NCBI GenBank assembly: GCA_938028665.1
Contig: CALIMB010000086.1
Location: forward strand, 1-39,635
DNA length: 39,635 bases
Source of the DNA: an uncultured Thermomicrobium sp.
Lineage (GTDB): Bacteria > Chloroflexota > Chloroflexia > Thermomicrobiales > Thermomicrobiaceae
Reading direction: 5' to 3'
The stretch's first letter is position 1. The number at the start of each line of letters is the position of its first letter. This document shows, piece after piece, positions 13,022-20,370 of this stretch. The notes beneath the pieces are model-generated. The model did no database searches, had not been told where the DNA came from, and saw nothing but the letters and a program-made list of their open reading frames with translations. The position numbers were made by a program, and so were the translations under genes.

Positions 13022-13381
13022 GTGCGACAGGCGACGGGCACTGCCAACCGTCGGCAGAAACGCTCGTTCTTTCTCGTCGTGAGTGAACAAACGTGGCTGT
13101 TGCCGGTGGCGACGGTTGCGTTTGTTCTTTTTGTTGGCGGACCGAGTATTGCTGTCCTGTTCTTTTCGGTCACACCATGGCTGATTGTTCCCTTCTTGCT
13201 CCCATCCTTCCTTGCAACGTGGCTTGGACTGATTGTTGCGCTTGCCGATCTTTTGCAACGCCCAGCGCACCAGTTTCCTGGTGGGCGGACGTTCTGGCTG
13301 ATCCTGATCACACTTTTCAACGTCATCGCATTCTTGCCGTATTGGCTCTTCGTGGCACGGCGGCCGAGACGGACGAGCTAA
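13022..13381 (+). CDS. Small membrane protein, PLDc_N-like
   Basis: About 119 residues with a hydrophobic N-terminal half (two spans) and a final span reading FWLILITLFNVIAFLPYWLFVARRP. The sequence LADLLQRP...GGRTFWLILI...LPYWLF recalls the PLDc_N domain (a short two-span module at the head of cardiolipin synthases or alone). No phospholipase catalytic motif is present. GTG 13022 lies two bases after rpsU, but a GTG at codon 20 is also possible, so the N-terminus is uncertain. The stop codon overlaps the stop of the convergent gene. Confidence 0.65.
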   Translation: MRQATGTANRRQKRSFFLVVSEQTWLLPVATVAFVLFVGGPSIAVLFFSVTPWLIVPFLLPSFLATWLGLIVALADLLQRPAHQFPGGRTFWLILITLFNVIAFLPYWLFVARRPRRTS

Positions 13382-13833
13382 TGGGAGTTCTCGGGCGATT
13401 CGAATGGGCGCAGTCCATGCTGAATTTCCTCAGCAAGCTTCTGAACCTCTGCAGCCGGCGCCAGCGTATTGACGGCGGTCTGGAGCTCTTCAAAAAGACG
13501 ATCCACATGTTCACGCTGCTCCGCGGTCATCGCCTCCCGGATGGTCTCCCACTGCGCCCGGGCCCGTTGGACTGCTGACTGGGCTGCAGCATACTCCTCC
13601 TGCTCCAGCACCTGTCCGTCGCGGACGACTTGCTCTGTGTAGAGGGACAGCTGTAAGACGTCGAGCTCCGCCTGGATCCGCTCAACTGTACCCGAAACCG
13701 CCGGTTGACCAGTATCGCTCTGGTGCGACAATCCCCAGATGATCGCTGCGAGGGCAAGAGCGAGAATGCTGAGCGCGATCGCGACGATACGGTGCCACCA
13801 CGGTCTCCGGCTGTGTGGACGAACGATTGCCAT
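13378..13833 (-). CDS. Membrane-anchored helical protein of the iron-uptake operon
   Basis: A 151-residue protein with a basic N-terminus, one membrane span (about residues 14-36) and an extracytoplasmic helical domain. That domain contains VVRDGQVLEQEEYAAAQ (about 69-85), which resembles GVENGKIVNIEEYQDSW in the lipoprotein at the head of the same operon. In FTR1-type systems, segments of the form G-K-V-x-N-x-x-E-Y-x-E occur in extracytoplasmic domains, from memory of the family. ATG 13833 has GAGG six bases upstream; the upstream gene stops nine bases before it. It is the last gene of the operon. Function by context: part of iron uptake at the cell surface. Confidence 0.7.
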   Translation of the reverse strand: MAIVRPHSRRPWWHRIVAIALSILALALAAIIWGLSHQSDTGQPAVSGTVERIQAELDVLQLSLYTEQVVRDGQVLEQEEYAAAQSAVQRARAQWETIREAMTAEQREHVDRLFEELQTAVNTLAPAAEVQKLAEEIQHGLRPFESPENSH

Positions 13834-13841
13834 GAGTTTCC

Positions 13842-15896
13842 TCACACGCGAGCTGGTTGACCGATCAGTAAGCAGCCGAGCTCCTCAGTTGCGATAGGTG
13901 CCTGAACGGGGAGTGAACGATCGAAGAGGAGATAGCGTGAGCCGATGATCGCACAGGCACACTGCCCGGTTAGGGCCGACAGCGAGAGCTCAGCAGGCGC
14001 TCGCAGCGCGTGACACCAGCCATCAGCGGCACGGAAGCAGATCGCACCAGTACTGTCGATAACGGCGAGTGGCCGACGCTCACGCCGGAAGGGACCGATT
14101 CTCCGGCGCACAGTCGCAGTGAACACACGGTAGAATTCATTTTCGAATTGAAGTTCGAGACACTGTGACGGAACGCCAAGGGCCTGTGCCGCCAGTTGCA
14201 GTGCTTCTGCGCGACTGATCCGTATCTTGGTTGAGCTACCCGAAGGTTCCTCAAGTGCTGTGGCGCGAATGCGCGCTGCATGCCTTTCTGGAATTGGCTC
14301 GACAACAACTTGGACGCTGCGTGGATCTGCACCAAGAGCGACGAGCTGATGCTCGAGACGCTGGATAGTGGCCTGGAGCTCGGCTCCGGAATACAGGTGT
14401 ACCTCTTCGATCACGCTCAGCGGGGTTGTTGTCGCGCCAATCGCGGCCATCACTTCAGCATGGTGTGCGATCGCGAGCGGAAGGCGGAGCCGTTTGGCCA
14501 GTGCTGGTGCAAGCACGCCAGCGCCGCCCCCGAGGCCAATCAGGTGGGGTTGCTGTAACTCGTAGTCCTGCATCAGTTCTCGTGCCAGTGGGACGAGCGC
14601 ATCAACCGCCCGCGCCAAGACTTCCTGCGCTGTCTCGTCAACCGTGCGCCCGAGCAGATCGGCGAGCGGTTGGAACGCAGCGCGAGCGCGCTCACGATCA
14701 CCAAAAGCGTAGTCGTGCGGTGCGAGCAATCCCAGGGCATTCGCTGCATCTGTCAGTGTTAAGGCGGCAGTTCGACCGTTCTGGTCGCGAACCACAACAT
14801 AATCGGGAGTGTCGCCCGGCAGCGGTGCGATGAAGGCGAGCGCAAAAGGCGGCTTGAGGTCGCTGGTAAAACTGACATAGGGCAGGCCAGCGATATGGGC
14901 GCTGCGGGGGCCGAGGCCGATGATTTGGCGGTGTGCGACGCGGATGAGTGAGCCGCCGCCCAGCCCGGCGACATGGACGTCGACTGAGCGCAGGCAGGTT
15001 GGATGCTGCATGATACGCACGTAGCGCAGGACGGGGCGGCCGTCGCGAATAACGCCAAGGTTCGTGCTTGTACCTCCGACCTCGACAAAGAGTGCATCGA
15101 CGGTCGGATGTTCTCGTAATGCACCTGCGACACTGGCTGCTGGACCAGACAGCATGCTTGTCGCTGGAAGCTCAGCGAGTTGATCGATTGACGCCACGCT
15201 CAGATCACCCGTCAGGATCATGGCCGGAGCGAGAATGCCAGCTTCTTGCAGTGCCGCACGTACCCACTGAGTTGTCTTGCGCATGCATGGCAGGATGCTC
15301 GCGTTGATCGCTGCCGTCACCGTGCGAACTTCCAAGCCGTAGAGACCGGTCAGTTGATGGCCCGCTGTGGCGGGAAGACCGAGATCACCGGCTATGGCAA
15401 GCGCGAGGCGTTCCGGTTCTGGATCCTCGACGGCATAAGCAGCCGAAATGGCAACGGCACGGGCCCCAGATCGGCTGAGAGACTCGAGGGCAGCTCGTAC
15501 CCTCTCAGGGGTTACTGCTTCACGATCCAGGTAGGTGTAATGGAGGGTGAGTGTGCGCCCGGGAGCAAGTTTGATCTGATCTAGTCGCGTCCGCTGTTGA
15601 GTTTGCCGCCGCTCCGCACGTGGGCCGATGGCGAGGATCCCAACCGGTACAACATCGCCTTCGAGCAGCGCATTGACTGCTTGCGTCGTGCTGAAGGTGA
15701 CCACGCGGATTTCTTCTGGTGGGATACCAGTTTGGCGAATCAGCGCCTCTAAGGCTTGCACCGCCCCGGCTGCAACACCGTGTTGGGCAGCATGCGTGGT
15801 CGGAACGGCGACGTGAGCGCATAGGTCGCCCGTTTCCTGGTGCAGCGCCACTGCCTTGGTGAACGTCCCGCCGACATCGATGCCGATGCGAATCAC
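13842..15896 (-). CDS. Hydantoinase/oxoprolinase family protein (HyuA-like)
   Basis: A 684-residue protein with an N-terminal ATP-binding fold GIDVGGTFTKAVAL (residues 4-17) and a second sugar-kinase-like element VEVGGTSTNLGVI in the middle. GLGGGSLI and GLGGGAGVLAPALA follow, as in the HyuA/methylhydantoinase/5-oxoprolinase A family. The last 180 residues are less familiar. HyuA enzymes usually work with a HyuB partner, and none is here. GTG 15896 overlaps the FTR1 stop (GTGA) with GAGAGGGGG upstream, so it is translationally coupled to the iron permease. Why an ATP-dependent amide-opening enzyme is built into an iron-uptake operon is unclear. Confidence 0.82.
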   Translation of the reverse strand: MIRIGIDVGGTFTKAVALHQETGDLCAHVAVPTTHAAQHGVAAGAVQALEALIRQTGIPPEEIRVVTFSTTQAVNALLEGDVVPVGILAIGPRAERRQTQQRTRLDQIKLAPGRTLTLHYTYLDREAVTPERVRAALESLSRSGARAVAISAAYAVEDPEPERLALAIAGDLGLPATAGHQLTGLYGLEVRTVTAAINASILPCMRKTTQWVRAALQEAGILAPAMILTGDLSVASIDQLAELPATSMLSGPAASVAGALREHPTVDALFVEVGGTSTNLGVIRDGRPVLRYVRIMQHPTCLRSVDVHVAGLGGGSLIRVAHRQIIGLGPRSAHIAGLPYVSFTSDLKPPFALAFIAPLPGDTPDYVVVRDQNGRTAALTLTDAANALGLLAPHDYAFGDRERARAAFQPLADLLGRTVDETAQEVLARAVDALVPLARELMQDYELQQPHLIGLGGGAGVLAPALAKRLRLPLAIAHHAEVMAAIGATTTPLSVIEEVHLYSGAELQATIQRLEHQLVALGADPRSVQVVVEPIPERHAARIRATALEEPSGSSTKIRISRAEALQLAAQALGVPSQCLELQFENEFYRVFTATVRRRIGPFRRERRPLAVIDSTGAICFRAADGWCHALRAPAELSLSALTGQCACAIIGSRYLLFDRSLPVQAPIATEELGCLLIGQPARV

Positions 15897-17164
15897 GCGA
15901 TCCCCCTCTCTCGATCAGTCGCACCCAGTGCACGTCTCGCTGGTGCTGATCGGTACCAGGACCAGCCGGCCCAGCCCCACGCGGCAAGATAGGCAGTAGC
16001 AAGCGTTGCCTGAGCCAGGAAAACCTCTCGGGTTGGATGGAGACCTAAAACATCGAGGAGACTACGATTGAGATTGGGGAGTTGGATGACTGAGATCGGG
16101 AGGTAGCCGATCATTTGAAGTTCCCACACAGCGTGGCCCAAGATTGCGAGGGACAAGACCATAATGATGAGAATGGCGATCGAGAGGAAGGCACGGAGGG
16201 GGAGCCGCCTTCCGAGACCAAGGACCGCCCATCCGAGTGCCATCAGAAGGAGCGCAGCGATCAGAAGACCGAGGAAAACCCAGAACTCCAGTCGTCGAGC
16301 CATCAGGACGAGTGACTGGTACAACACCGCTGTCTCTACGCCCTCACGGTAGACAGCCGTAAAGCCAAGAAGCGCGATCGCTGATGCCTTGCCAGTTGCA
16401 ACGGCCTCCCACGCGTGTCCTCGCAGGTATTCCATCCAGCGACGAGTGTCGATCCGACGCAGTAGCCAGAGGCTGATCGAGATCATCAGCGCCACTGCCA
16501 GGAGCGACATTCCAATCTCCAAGAGTTCTCGACCGATCGGAACTACCCGCAGGACAACAACCAGGGCCAGCCAGGTGAAGAGACTGGCAGGGATTGCGAG
16601 AGTGGCTCCGATCCAGAGGGGACGACGAAGACGCGGTTGATGAGTGCCTACAAAGCCGAGTAAAGCTGCGATCACGAGAATCGCTTCGATCCCTTCGCGA
16701 AGGAGGATCGAAAAAGAGGCAAGCCCGACGAAGAGTGGTGCAGCAAGGCCAGGACCTCCAACGAGCCGCTCGACTTCGACAAGCCCGTTCTCGATCTCCA
16801 GAAGAAGCCGTTCGATTTCGGAAGATGGTGCGCCACGTTCAATGAGCTGCCGCCATTGAGCGAACTTGACTTCCATTGCAAACGTAAAGTTGGGATCAGC
16901 GACTCGGAGTGGAACTTCAACAAGTTCAAAGTGGTCAAGATACGCTTGCCGTGCCAGACGGAGAGCACGTTCGCGGTCTCCTGACTGGTACGCACTCTGA
17001 CTGTCCCGCATTAACTGGCGAATCGCGGCCAATTCCTGCGAGATGGTCACACCCGAAGAAGGGGATTCGGCAAGAGTGCGTGGTGCGGCGAGGGTGATCG
17101 AGGCGGCGAGCAAGGCGATGAACCATCCAAGCCTGAATAAGTAGCGTGAGGGTGCGACGGTCAC
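15893..17164 (-). CDS. FTR1-family iron permease with extracytoplasmic N-terminal domain
   Basis: A 423-residue permease for high-affinity iron uptake. A signal-like hydrophobic stretch (residues 10-26) leads into an extracytoplasmic helical domain (about 40-140) and then seven or so membrane spans. Two RExxE iron motifs are present: REGIE (156-160) and REGVE (273-277), both at the start of hydrophobic spans as the family requires. The N-terminal domain (QSAYQSGDRERALRLARQAYLDHFE) is homologous by eye to the C-terminal domain of the lipoprotein upstream. GTG 17164 overlaps the lipoprotein stop and has GAGGAGG nearby. Oxidised or reduced iron as substrate cannot be told. Confidence 0.9.
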   Translation of the reverse strand: MTVAPSRYLFRLGWFIALLAASITLAAPRTLAESPSSGVTISQELAAIRQLMRDSQSAYQSGDRERALRLARQAYLDHFELVEVPLRVADPNFTFAMEVKFAQWRQLIERGAPSSEIERLLLEIENGLVEVERLVGGPGLAAPLFVGLASFSILLREGIEAILVIAALLGFVGTHQPRLRRPLWIGATLAIPASLFTWLALVVVLRVVPIGRELLEIGMSLLAVALMISISLWLLRRIDTRRWMEYLRGHAWEAVATGKASAIALLGFTAVYREGVETAVLYQSLVLMARRLEFWVFLGLLIAALLLMALGWAVLGLGRRLPLRAFLSIAILIIMVLSLAILGHAVWELQMIGYLPISVIQLPNLNRSLLDVLGLHPTREVFLAQATLATAYLAAWGWAGWSWYRSAPARRALGATDRERGIA

Positions 17165-18288
17165 CGGAGCACCTCCTCAACCTCCTCGAGTGCGCTTTCC
17201 ACCTGGCGAATCAGCCGCTCCACTTCTCCCACCGGGCGCTCTGCTCGGATCGCGTCGCGGATTGCCTTGAAGTCCTTTTCGAGTTGTTCGACAAGTTGGC
17301 GATGACCGCGCTCCAGCAGAGACGGTTCGAGTGGCTCGAATCCCTCGAGGTAAGCGTTGGCCGCCTCTTCGTAGGCTTGGTTCGTATTGCCAGCACGGTA
17401 AGCCTGCAACGCAGCCGCGAGCTGGGCACGAATCTTGGCAAGCTGCTCTTCGGTTGACGATGTGGTTGGCGAGCTGATAGCGAAAGTGCTGCGTAGTTCA
17501 CTTGCACAATGGAGTAATCGCTCGCGCGCCGTGTTCGCCTCAGCAACTGTCGTTCCTGGAGCATCGTAGAACGACATGAAGGTTGTCTGAGCGAGTGCGT
17601 CCAAATCCTCCTGGATTCTAGTTAGAGTACTGCGTACATCTGGAGGTGCGGTCGCGGAAACGAGTGGAAATTCACGACGCAAAATATGAAAGAATCCCCA
17701 GGAATCCTGATACTCCTCGATATTGACGATCTTTCCGTTCTCAACACCCTCAAGAAACTCGCTGGCCGCAGACTCTGCCAGGAGCGCCAGCGCTGCAGCA
17801 CGGGTTACGTTTGGATCCGAAGAGCCATCGATAATAGCGCGGATCACATCTTGGAGCGCTTGACGTGCTGTCTCGTTGCGTGCTGCAGCGTCGTGAGCCT
17901 GCTGTTTGGTTGCTTCTAGGTAGTCATCCAGCGCTCTGCGGATGCTGGCGAGGTCAGAAGCGTTAAGGCGGCCTTGAACGCTTGCCCAGTATTCAGCAGC
18001 TGGATGCGCAGCATGTGCTTGGGCGAGTGTCCAGTTGCCGCGCTCGAGGTTGGCTCGGCTGGCCTCCAAGTGCCCCAACATCTCGTAAAGTATAGCGACA
18101 AACTCGCTTTCGTCCTCGCCCCCAGGAGCTCGATGACTGGTGTGAGGCGAGTCTGTGGTCGTGGTTGCTGCTGTGCTCACTGGTTGGGTTGCCGGCCGCG
18201 TCTCGACCGATGCTGAACACGCTGCGAGTACAAGCGTCAAGGCACTGTAAACAATCATCGACCGAATGGGGATCCGACCCATACCCAT
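17161..18288 (-). CDS. Lipoprotein of FTR1 iron-uptake operon
   Basis: A 375-residue predicted lipoprotein. A basic N-terminus and hydrophobic segment end in the lipobox LVLAAC (Cys24), followed by a Thr/Ser/Pro-rich linker. The first helical domain includes GVENGKIVNIEEYQDSW (about 179-195). The last domain (about 280-375; QAYRAGNTNQAYEEAANAYLEGFEPLE) matches the N-terminal domain of the FTR1 permease that follows. It probably binds or hands over iron outside the membrane, much as EfeO does for EfeU, though I see no EfeO-like motif. ATG 18288 has AAAGGG eight bases before; ATG 18282 is an alternative. First gene of the operon. Confidence 0.8.
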   Translation of the reverse strand: MGMGRIPIRSMIVYSALTLVLAACSASVETRPATQPVSTAATTTTDSPHTSHRAPGGEDESEFVAILYEMLGHLEASRANLERGNWTLAQAHAAHPAAEYWASVQGRLNASDLASIRRALDDYLEATKQQAHDAAARNETARQALQDVIRAIIDGSSDPNVTRAAALALLAESAASEFLEGVENGKIVNIEEYQDSWGFFHILRREFPLVSATAPPDVRSTLTRIQEDLDALAQTTFMSFYDAPGTTVAEANTARERLLHCASELRSTFAISSPTTSSTEEQLAKIRAQLAAALQAYRAGNTNQAYEEAANAYLEGFEPLEPSLLERGHRQLVEQLEKDFKAIRDAIRAERPVGEVERLIRQVESALEEVEEVLR

Positions 18289-18380
18289 CCTGTCGTCCCT
18301 TTCGTGGAACGCTTCCTCTCTGCTCTGCACTCCCCGATCCGGTCGCCGGCGACCAAATCCGAGTAATTTGCTCGGGATTC

Positions 18381-18409
18381 ATTCTAGAGGGCGATCAAGC
18401 ATGTGTCAA
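18381..18409 (-). promoter_or_regulatory. Sigma-70-type promoter of the iron-uptake operon
   Basis: On the minus strand, a perfect -35 TTGACA (18404-18409) and -10 TAGAAT (18381-18386, five of six) are 17 bases apart. Transcription would start near 18374, giving an 86-base leader before the lipoprotein gene. No Fur-box-like palindrome was noticed over it. Confidence 0.75.
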
Positions 18410-18865: not shown

Positions 18866-19531
18866 TCAGACCGGCCAGGACTCCATGCGCCAGGCGGCGT
18901 CCCAGAACATCCATTCGTACCGCGACGTAGTGACAAAATGGGCGCGGACAGCTGCGCGCCGTTCCCCGCGGAGATCCGTCACCGCGTCCTCGGTGACGTT
19001 GATCACTGCCTGAACGACCGCGGCGTACTCCGCAGATGCATAGGTAGCAATCCAGCGCTGGTAGAGTGGGTTGGGGGAGCCTGCTTTCTCAAGGTGTTTT
19101 CCTACTTCCCAGTAGATCCAGTAGCATGGCAGGACCGCTCCGAGGAGCTCCTCAAAGGGGCGATCATAGGCAATGCGAAGGAGATACGAGGTGTAGGCTA
19201 AGTTGGTGGGCGCATACGGGGTTGCAGCAATCTCTTCTGGTGAGAGTTCCCATTCGCGGAAGAAACTTTCATGAAGCGAGCGCTCCACGACGAGTGCGAT
19301 TTTGGCATGATCTGCGAAGAGTTCACACCAAGGATCACGCGGTGACTTCGCTGCTGCCAGAGCCAGGCAACGGGCGTAGTCTCGGAGGTAAAGGGCATCT
19401 TGCACGACATAGTACCGGAACGCATCTTCCGGGAGCGAGCCATCTGTCAGGCCGCGCAGGAAAGGATGAGCGAGGATTGCTGCGAAGATATCGGTGATCG
19501 AGCTCCAGAGTTCGTCTGTGAAGCGGGACAT
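18866..19531 (-). CDS. tenA: TenA family aminopyrimidine aminohydrolase/thiaminase II (TenA_C type)
   Basis: A 221-residue helical enzyme of thiamine salvage; TenA proteins hydrolyse aminopyrimidine fragments of degraded thiamine to HMP. The active-site cysteine is present (Cys136 in VLPCYWIYWEVG), with YVVQDALYLRDYAR (Asp45, Tyr48) and the C-terminal SRYEWMFWDAAW, as in the classical B. subtilis-type group. ATG 19531 has AGAAGGAG upstream, 18 bases after the paralogue's stop. Second gene of a TPP-riboswitch-controlled operon. Confidence 0.92.
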   Translation of the reverse strand: MSRFTDELWSSITDIFAAILAHPFLRGLTDGSLPEDAFRYYVVQDALYLRDYARCLALAAAKSPRDPWCELFADHAKIALVVERSLHESFFREWELSPEEIAATPYAPTNLAYTSYLLRIAYDRPFEELLGAVLPCYWIYWEVGKHLEKAGSPNPLYQRWIATYASAEYAAVVQAVINVTEDAVTDLRGERRAAVRAHFVTTSRYEWMFWDAAWRMESWPV

Positions 19532-19549
19532 TGATCGACTCCTTCTCCT

Positions 19550-20197
19550 TCAGATTGGCCATGTCATACCGGTATAGACCATGTCCCAGAACAGGTACTC
19601 GTAGCGTGCTGTAGCGAGGAAAACCCGGCGAATCGCTGGATACTCGCCGGTGCTCGAGCAACGCACGAGCTGTGTCCCGAGCCACTCAACCCAGGCGGCG
19701 AACTGCGGGCTTGTCCAGTTCTCAATCCAGCGAGCATAGGGTCCAGCCAAGCCGACCACTTGCCGAACGGTTGACCAGGCGTCGTAGTACGCCTTTTCAG
19801 CGCCCCAGAGGGCTGCAAGTGCCTCGCCAAGTGACCCGGTTGCTGCAGTAGCGAGAAGAAAGCTCGCGTAACCGAGGCAAACTGGAGTGGGCTCGACCTG
19901 TAGCTCGAGTCTTTGTTGGTGGGCATAATCCTCGAAGATGCTGAGTTCGTTGCGGAAGGCGACAGCTGCGTCCAGGAGGCCGTAGCGGAGTTCGTCGTCC
20001 GGGGCACGGGCGATGAGGAGCGCGAGGAAACGCAGACCGTCTTGGACGAATCGGTAGTCTTGCTGTACCCAAAAGTCGAAGCGCTCACGCGGAAGGCGAC
20101 CGGTGGCGAGTTCGTGGAGAAACGGATGCGCCGTCATGGCCTCCCAGATGGGGCGCGCCTCGCTCAGGAGCTCGTCGAGAAGTGGGGTGGACATCAT
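19550..20197 (-). CDS. TenA family protein lacking the catalytic cysteine (TenA_E type)
   Basis: A 215-residue TenA homologue with FWVQQDYRFVQDGLRFLALL and the C-terminal TARYEYLFWDMVY. At the catalytic position it reads ALWGAEKAYYDAW: alanine replaces the cysteine and Glu134 follows, the mark of the TenA_E group. TenA_E proteins act on other base-degraded thiamine products, and their chemistry differs from TenA_C. Start ATG 20197 or ATG 20194; GGAGG lies four or seven bases upstream. Directly downstream of the TPP riboswitch and followed by the cysteine-bearing paralogue, so the pair may do successive salvage steps. Confidence 0.88.
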   Translation of the reverse strand: MMSTPLLDELLSEARPIWEAMTAHPFLHELATGRLPRERFDFWVQQDYRFVQDGLRFLALLIARAPDDELRYGLLDAAVAFRNELSIFEDYAHQQRLELQVEPTPVCLGYASFLLATAATGSLGEALAALWGAEKAYYDAWSTVRQVVGLAGPYARWIENWTSPQFAAWVEWLGTQLVRCSSTGEYPAIRRVFLATARYEYLFWDMVYTGMTWPI

Positions 20198-20257
20198 CGC
20201 ACCTCCGGGTAACGCAGCTGGAATGAGCTGGCGATTCTGTACGGGGATACCTTGCCG

Positions 20258-20370
20258 ATGTCTGGCCTCCCTTCGCTGGTATTACCCAGATCAGGTCGTG
20301 ACCGGTCGGCGGCGGGATCCTGGGCCGCCCTCTCAGCCTGGTTCACCCAAGCTCCCGGGGCATGTCAGCG
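20258..20370 (-). promoter_or_regulatory. TPP (THI-element) riboswitch
   Basis: Reading the minus strand, the THI core is clear. A P2-like hairpin CTTGG-GTGAA-CCAGG leads into CTGAGAG. Next is a P3 stem GGCGGC/GCCGCC, then ACCTGATCTGGGTAATACCA, GCGAAGGGAGG. These match the conserved CUGAGA and ACCUGAUCUGG..AAUxCCAGCGxAGGGA boxes. The pairing of P1 and the exact ends are approximate. It lies about 60 bases before the first tenA gene. No T-run terminator follows, so control of translation (hiding GGAGG) is more likely than attenuation. Confidence 0.93.

Follow-up and report, generated by a model that had tools for sequence, protein, structure and literature searches.

A four-gene FTR1 permease cassette of Thermomicrobium with helical modules common to three proteins and a conserved hydantoinase/oxoprolinase-A-like gene

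We analysed a stretch of 39,635 nucleotides from an uncultured Thermomicrobium sp. (contig CALIMB010000086.1), here called the window. On its minus strand, it carries a cassette of four genes encoding a lipoprotein (LIPO), an FTR1 permease (FTR1), a hydantoinase/oxoprolinase-A-like protein (OXO) and a small protein with a predicted membrane anchor (SMALL), Table 1. Taken as a whole, the cassette is probably an FTR1-type importer of iron under iron control, with a new type of lipoprotein as capture protein. The observations are the gene order, the homology of the modules, the conservation of the four-gene cassette, the link between FTR1 and OXO in archaea and an operator shared with other genes. 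The importer reading is based on the FTR1 family membership, both REXXE motifs, the shared modules, the conserved cassette and the recurring operator; moreover, the extracytoplasmic EfeU partners EfeM and EfeO rank high, though with weak scores, when LIPO is searched with Foldseek. An earlier prediction made from the DNA letters, the original prediction, had pointed to the cassette. It missed both the conserved OXO gene, the third of the four, which it left uncharacterised, and the shared operator. OXO is the more surprising part of the cassette.

The genes are arranged in the order LIPO-FTR1-OXO-SMALL, and all three junctions are overlaps of 4 nt, in line with the original prediction of genes that overlap or nearly touch. 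The single promoter that it placed ahead of all four genes is also found as a consensus match, Table 1. FTR1 obtains 55.2 bits with the Pfam FTR1 family (gathering score 25.3) and misses the cut-off of the NCBIfam EfeU equivalog (76.9 bits, cut-off 255). No Pfam family scores above its cut-off for LIPO or SMALL.

Table 1. Features of the cassette and of its upstream region, in window positions (aa, amino acids of the named protein).
Feature	Position	Strand	Basis
LIPO, lipoprotein, 375 aa, lipobox LAAC24, three four-helix bundles	17161..18288	minus	sequence and AlphaFold
LIPO bundle 1, aa 56-154, conserved H73, H92, H95-P, E99	17827..18123	minus	alignment and AlphaFold
LIPO bundle 2 (module A), aa 159-268, hairpin ENGKIVNIEEYQ	17485..17814	minus	profiles and AlphaFold
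LIPO bundle 3 (module B), aa 279-374	17167..17454	minus	BLASTP, profiles, AlphaFold
FTR1 permease, 423 aa	15893..17164	minus	Pfam FTR1 8.5e-15, above gathering score
FTR1 extracytoplasmic module B, aa 36-138, conserved D77 H78 E80 E83	16751..17059	minus	alignment and profiles
First REXXE of FTR1, REGIE, aa 156-160	16685..16699	minus	R156, E157, E160 invariant in 12 sequences
Second REXXE of FTR1, REGVE, aa 273-277	16334..16348	minus	R273, E274, E277 invariant in 12 sequences
OXO, orphan hydantoinase/oxoprolinase-A-like, 684 aa, ASKHA-type ATPase family	13842..15896	minus	PF01968 9.9e-47, PF05378 7.5e-22
SMALL, 155 aa, membrane-anchored module A copy	13378..13845	minus	profiles and AlphaFold
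SMALL predicted membrane helix, aa 17-40	13726..13797	minus	model
SMALL four-helix bundle, aa 46-148, hairpin RDGQVLEQEEYA	13402..13710	minus	model
Sigma-70-like promoter, TTGACA-N17-TAGAAT	18381..18409	minus	consensus 11/12; kept in five Thermomicrobium relatives
Palindromic operator AATCCCGAGCAAATTACTCGGATT, directly downstream of the -10 box	18356..18379	minus	recurrence at other genes

The AlphaFold model of LIPO (pLDDT 84.8, pTM 0.77) contains three bundles, at residues 56-154, 159-268 and 279-374, with a hairpin at 182-187. According to the original prediction, two module types are spread over three proteins, and the profile comparison and structure prediction that it suggested agree with this: the modules match and the order of their elements is the same. 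Module B is common to LIPO and FTR1. By direct BLASTP, LIPO 273-374 and FTR1 34-135 are 33% identical over 103 residues (E 2e-9), and the profiles of LIPO bundle 3 and the N-terminal domain of FTR1 match with 99.3% in hhalign (E 7.8e-21). The pattern proposed for the two, QAY..G....A...A..AYL..FE, occurs exactly in LIPO QAYRAGNTNQAYEEAANAYLEGFE and FTR1 SAYQSGDRERALRLARQAYLDHFE once its leading Q is dropped. Module A is common to LIPO and SMALL, as proposed from the likeness between the LIPO middle segment and the last gene's product. As a pair of single sequences these segments are unconvincing; as profiles the similarity is significant, with 92-94% in hhalign and E 5e-7 to 1.4e-7. The model of SMALL (pLDDT 82.2, pTM 0.64) has a helix at 17-40 and a bundle at 46-148, and in both SMALL and LIPO bundle 2 a hairpin follows the first helix of the bundle. 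The match of the two folds is judged from the order of the elements and from the profiles.

All the module proteins are helical and rich in alanine and glutamate, and the single-sequence comparison of LIPO and SMALL is unconvincing, i.e. the similarity might be a by-product of such helices. This is hardly credible, however, as the observed scores are matched neither by the column-reversed profile nor by any of 60 shuffles of 7-column blocks, in which helix periodicity and composition are preserved, and the hairpin is at the same place in the LIPO and SMALL models. Generic helices, which the original prediction had named as its own refutation, were therefore rejected as the origin and the similarity is one of homology. 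We do not claim homology between LIPO bundles 1 and 3, where the matches are weak hints only (hhalign 2.8%). A sequence search for solved relatives of LIPO and FTR1 gave only designed helical proteins, and VIA-align gave many BRIL-type four-helix bundles, an arrangement too common to be informative.

The same modules occur in single chains elsewhere. Long FTR1 proteins of other Chloroflexota (777-823 aa) have module A before the permease domain, and two of them also have a weak module B. Because of these recognisable modules, the idea that one large protein has been split or duplicated is reasonable: a single-chain ancestor that was split here, or modules that were duplicated and then shed, would both fit. 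The ferroxidase part of the idea is not supported: family scans of the operon proteins revealed neither a cupredoxin nor a haem or multicopper domain. FTR1 proteins of ammonia-oxidising archaea (735-818 aa) have two copies of module B ahead of the permease domain, and in Nitrosarchaeum separate LIPO relatives of 373 aa adjoin the archaeal FTR1.

In LIPO bundle 1, 11 sequences share H73, H92, H95-P96 and E99 without exception, and the signature GH-x18-H-x2-HP-x2-E is kept in distant relatives, from Chloroflexota to ammonia-oxidising archaea. A metal site in this bundle is therefore likely. Of the acidic residues conserved in the LIPO module, SMALL retains just one, which makes iron binding by SMALL doubtful. 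In the Foldseek search with LIPO, EfeM (7q1g), EfeO (7wgu) and Algp7 are highly ranked, but their scores are weak. Membership of LIPO in the M75/imelysin family was rejected, as there is no Pfam match to Peptidase_M75 at E 1; the HXXE motif is absent from the conserved part of LIPO.

From these features, the following route can be proposed. LIPO, lipid-anchored outside the membrane, would take up iron at the conserved His/Glu site of bundle 1 and, by way of its acidic module B, hand it over to the sister module of FTR1. FTR1 would then carry it across the membrane via the two REXXE motifs, as judged from its family. SMALL, which carries a copy of module A on a membrane anchor, probably serves to keep LIPO and FTR1 together. 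In the cytosol, OXO, a member of an ATP-binding family, may make or break a small carboxylate or cyclic-amide ligand that accepts the imported iron, a role that we suggest only tentatively.

EfeUOB and EfeUOM with FepABC resemble the cassette in combining an FTR1 permease with an extracytoplasmic helical-bundle partner. In contrast to these systems, FTR1 here bears LIPO's own module, OXO and SMALL are additional, and the EfeB peroxidase is not among the four operon genes. The long Chloroflexota FTR1 proteins (~780-820 aa) are similar in having module A, partly module B and then the permease domain, all in one chain, whereas in the cassette the modules are spread and duplicated over three proteins and the permease belongs to another FTR1 clade. 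In FtrABCD, P19-cFtr1 and FetMP the partners are P19-type and cupredoxin proteins, unlike the four-helix modules common to partner and permease in the cassette. These three are further FTR1-based importers with dedicated extracytoplasmic partners (PMC9174327, PMC11966278), and for B. subtilis a minimal ferric importer consisting of EfeU and EfeO is described (PMC9174327).

The palindromic operator reads CCGAG-N7-CTCGG in Thermomicrobium and CCCGACTA-N3-TAGTCGGG in the sister genera, at the same position. Counting sites with at most one mismatch, we found it also before a second FTR1 gene in one genome (G169), before genes of SBP_bac_6-like binding proteins in five genomes, the window's own included, and, in another (G160), before a Peripla_BP_2 gene that most resembles iron-siderophore binders. 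For two sites, one in G167 and the other in G160, no gene could be clearly assigned. When three mismatches are allowed, most matches look like chance (control counts 0-3). The recurrence before the second FTR1 gene and the genes of ABC binding proteins implies that the common palindrome is a candidate element of iron control. We do not claim a ferric substrate for the SBP_bac_6 proteins, as family models point, below cut-off, to 2-aminoethylphosphonate transporters. The operator also precedes a nitroreductase-family gene in G169 (C1:384194, L226), possibly an iron-linked reductase.

The shape of the palindrome recalls IscR-type boxes, and the window's genome has two Rrf2 genes, one of them adjoining an IscS-like gene. 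A precedent is the Iron-Rhodo-box/IscR regulon of Rhodobacteraceae, with a palindromic box at iron-uptake promoters (PMC4618611). As there, one palindrome is found at several iron-uptake promoters, and the regulator here is a candidate. Rfam gave no riboswitch or other RNA family upstream of LIPO, and the 5' leader of the operon folds only slightly better than shuffled sequences.

In Thermomicrobiaceae, the order LIPO-FTR1-OXO-SMALL is kept in all cassettes except those truncated where a contig ends; the cassette is missing from some genera of the family. The same order is seen in further relatives, distant Chloroflexota included (G088, G177, G334 and the Anaerolineae bin L058), and one related locus (L078) has FTR1 and OXO without LIPO. 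Among 400 Chloroflexota genomes OXO is present in 13, and in 11 of these it directly follows an FTR1 gene. Those 11 FTR1 proteins are the best 11 of the phylum with at least 478 bits; the next one obtains 234 bits, and the FTR1 matches in the other 110 Chloroflexota genomes are far weaker. A first scan of genome contigs with LIPO alone gave no matches. The cassette is also present, in this order, on a contig titled Rubrobacter (L054/L158), whose genome (G312) was placed in the window's class by the genome search, i.e. the name of the record may be wrong.

The association of FTR1 and OXO extends to archaea. A scan based on OXO retained 80 loci. Among the archaeal rows of the tree, 25 of Nitrosopumilales type have OXO overlapping or touching an FTR1 gene; the two genes are 5-7 kb apart in two Nitrosocosmicus, and in 22 other Nitrososphaerales rows FTR1 was not found near OXO. 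In most archaeal and Chloroflexota loci the FTR1 and OXO frames overlap or are at most 31 nt apart. All 13 ammonia-oxidising archaeal genomes studied, each chosen for having OXO, contain an FTR1 gene that matches the cassette profile strongly. In the permease tree, the archaeal and cassette FTR1 proteins group together against 12 other FTR1 (support 99/95.8), and in the OXO tree Chloroflexota and archaea group together against Proteobacteria and Rokubacteria (SH-aLRT 93). The two gene trees agree. In Nitrosopelagicus (L079, L080, L087: 10199-13567) proteins of about 1100 aa follow OXO, and the one that was domain-scanned (L079) has two copies of module B.

OXO contains Hydantoinase_A (160 bits) and Hydant_A_N (78.3 bits), both above the gathering scores, the two domains also found in HyuA, 5-oxoprolinase and acetone carboxylase ATPase subunits. 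The nearest solved structures by profile match are N-methylhydantoinase (7hk5, 6.7e-35) and 5-oxoprolinase (6yra, 1.7e-34). However, at phosphate-loop positions where 7hk5 and 6yra have Asp, OXO has K14, E272 and N279, and after GPR it reads SAHIAGLPY. K14, E272, N279 and H334 are invariant in 86 of 86 relatives. No HyuB partner is present in the operon, the genome's single HyuB gene sits on another contig, and none was found in 13 archaeal genomes. OXO is an orphan HyuA-like protein with changed hallmark residues.

For the role of OXO, the genomic neighbours point in two directions. In Proteobacteria it adjoins genes of a GntP-like permease and a PhyH oxygenase, and in Nitrosocosmicus an Asp/Glu racemase-like gene, which favours a small-molecule enzyme. 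On the other hand, its overlap with FTR1 favours a partner of the permease. The enzyme appears slightly more likely. As a partner, OXO would be a physical, ATP-hydrolysing companion of FTR1, acting as gate, regulator or energiser, which we consider somewhat unlikely. The overlapping or near-touching genes in both Chloroflexota and archaea, the matching gene trees and the absence of HyuB from the operon and from 13 archaeal genomes speak for such a partner, but OXO showed neither a membrane helix nor a docking motif, and the gene occurs without an adjacent FTR1 in Nitrososphaerales and in its proteobacterial setting. It is unlikely that OXO as an ATP-dependent cytosolic partner defines an ATP-assisted type of importer, hitherto undescribed, common to Chloroflexota and ammonia-oxidising archaea. 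Stand-alone OXO genes in other lineages would also fit a co-regulated metabolic passenger without a direct role in iron import; we regard this as quite improbable, as the Chloroflexota OXO pairs with one FTR1 clade only, the same clade as its archaeal partner. Because of the OXO genes without adjacent FTR1 in Nitrososphaerales and Proteobacteria, its function is not confined to iron import.

Three observations weigh against the cassette being an iron importer as proposed. The EfeO and EfeM matches of LIPO are weak (E 0.02-0.2, prob 0.92-0.99, low TM-scores), OXO stands without a neighbouring FTR1 in the lineages just named, and the FTR1 locus of some archaea has cbtAB as its neighbour, which leaves room for another metal. 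Import of cobalt, manganese or copper is nevertheless very improbable: although the archaeal FTR1-OXO loci can adjoin cbtAB and a His/Glu site is not specific for iron, the permease is of the FTR1 family with both REXXE motifs, and the operator is common to a second FTR1 gene and the Peripla_BP_2 gene. In Nitrosotenuis-type archaea cbtB, cbtA and two TrmB-like regulator genes precede FTR1-OXO (L092:3970-5708 and similar loci).

With the iron importer as the preferred reading, OXO is a conserved partner gene of FTR1 in two domains of life, LIPO a predicted lipoprotein capture protein of new make-up, and the operator a testable element. The FTR1-OXO loci also bear on the open question of the iron transporter in ammonia-oxidising archaea. 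According to a 2019 study, Nitrosopumilus maritimus SCM1 lacks a gene for an Fe-specific membrane transporter (PMC6776035). A 2021 survey of ammonia oxidisers listed FTR1 alone, with Fet3p absent, in its tally (PMC9723733). Apart from an unrelated fungal genome, we found no paper that connects FTR1 and hydantoinase.

Some minor features remain. Racemases usually have a CNT motif; the Nitrosocosmicus racemase-like protein (L110:7084-7896) reads SNT. In the window, a small plus-strand gene at 13022-13381, with a PLDc_N match close to the cut-off, runs towards SMALL, and the ends of the two genes overlap by 4 nt. Upstream of the cassette, two tandem TenA-family genes (18866-20197, minus strand) lie behind a TPP riboswitch (20251-20368, minus strand; Rfam 57.3 bits). 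One of the two exceeds the thiaminase II cut-off, and the arrangement is kept in other Thermomicrobium loci.

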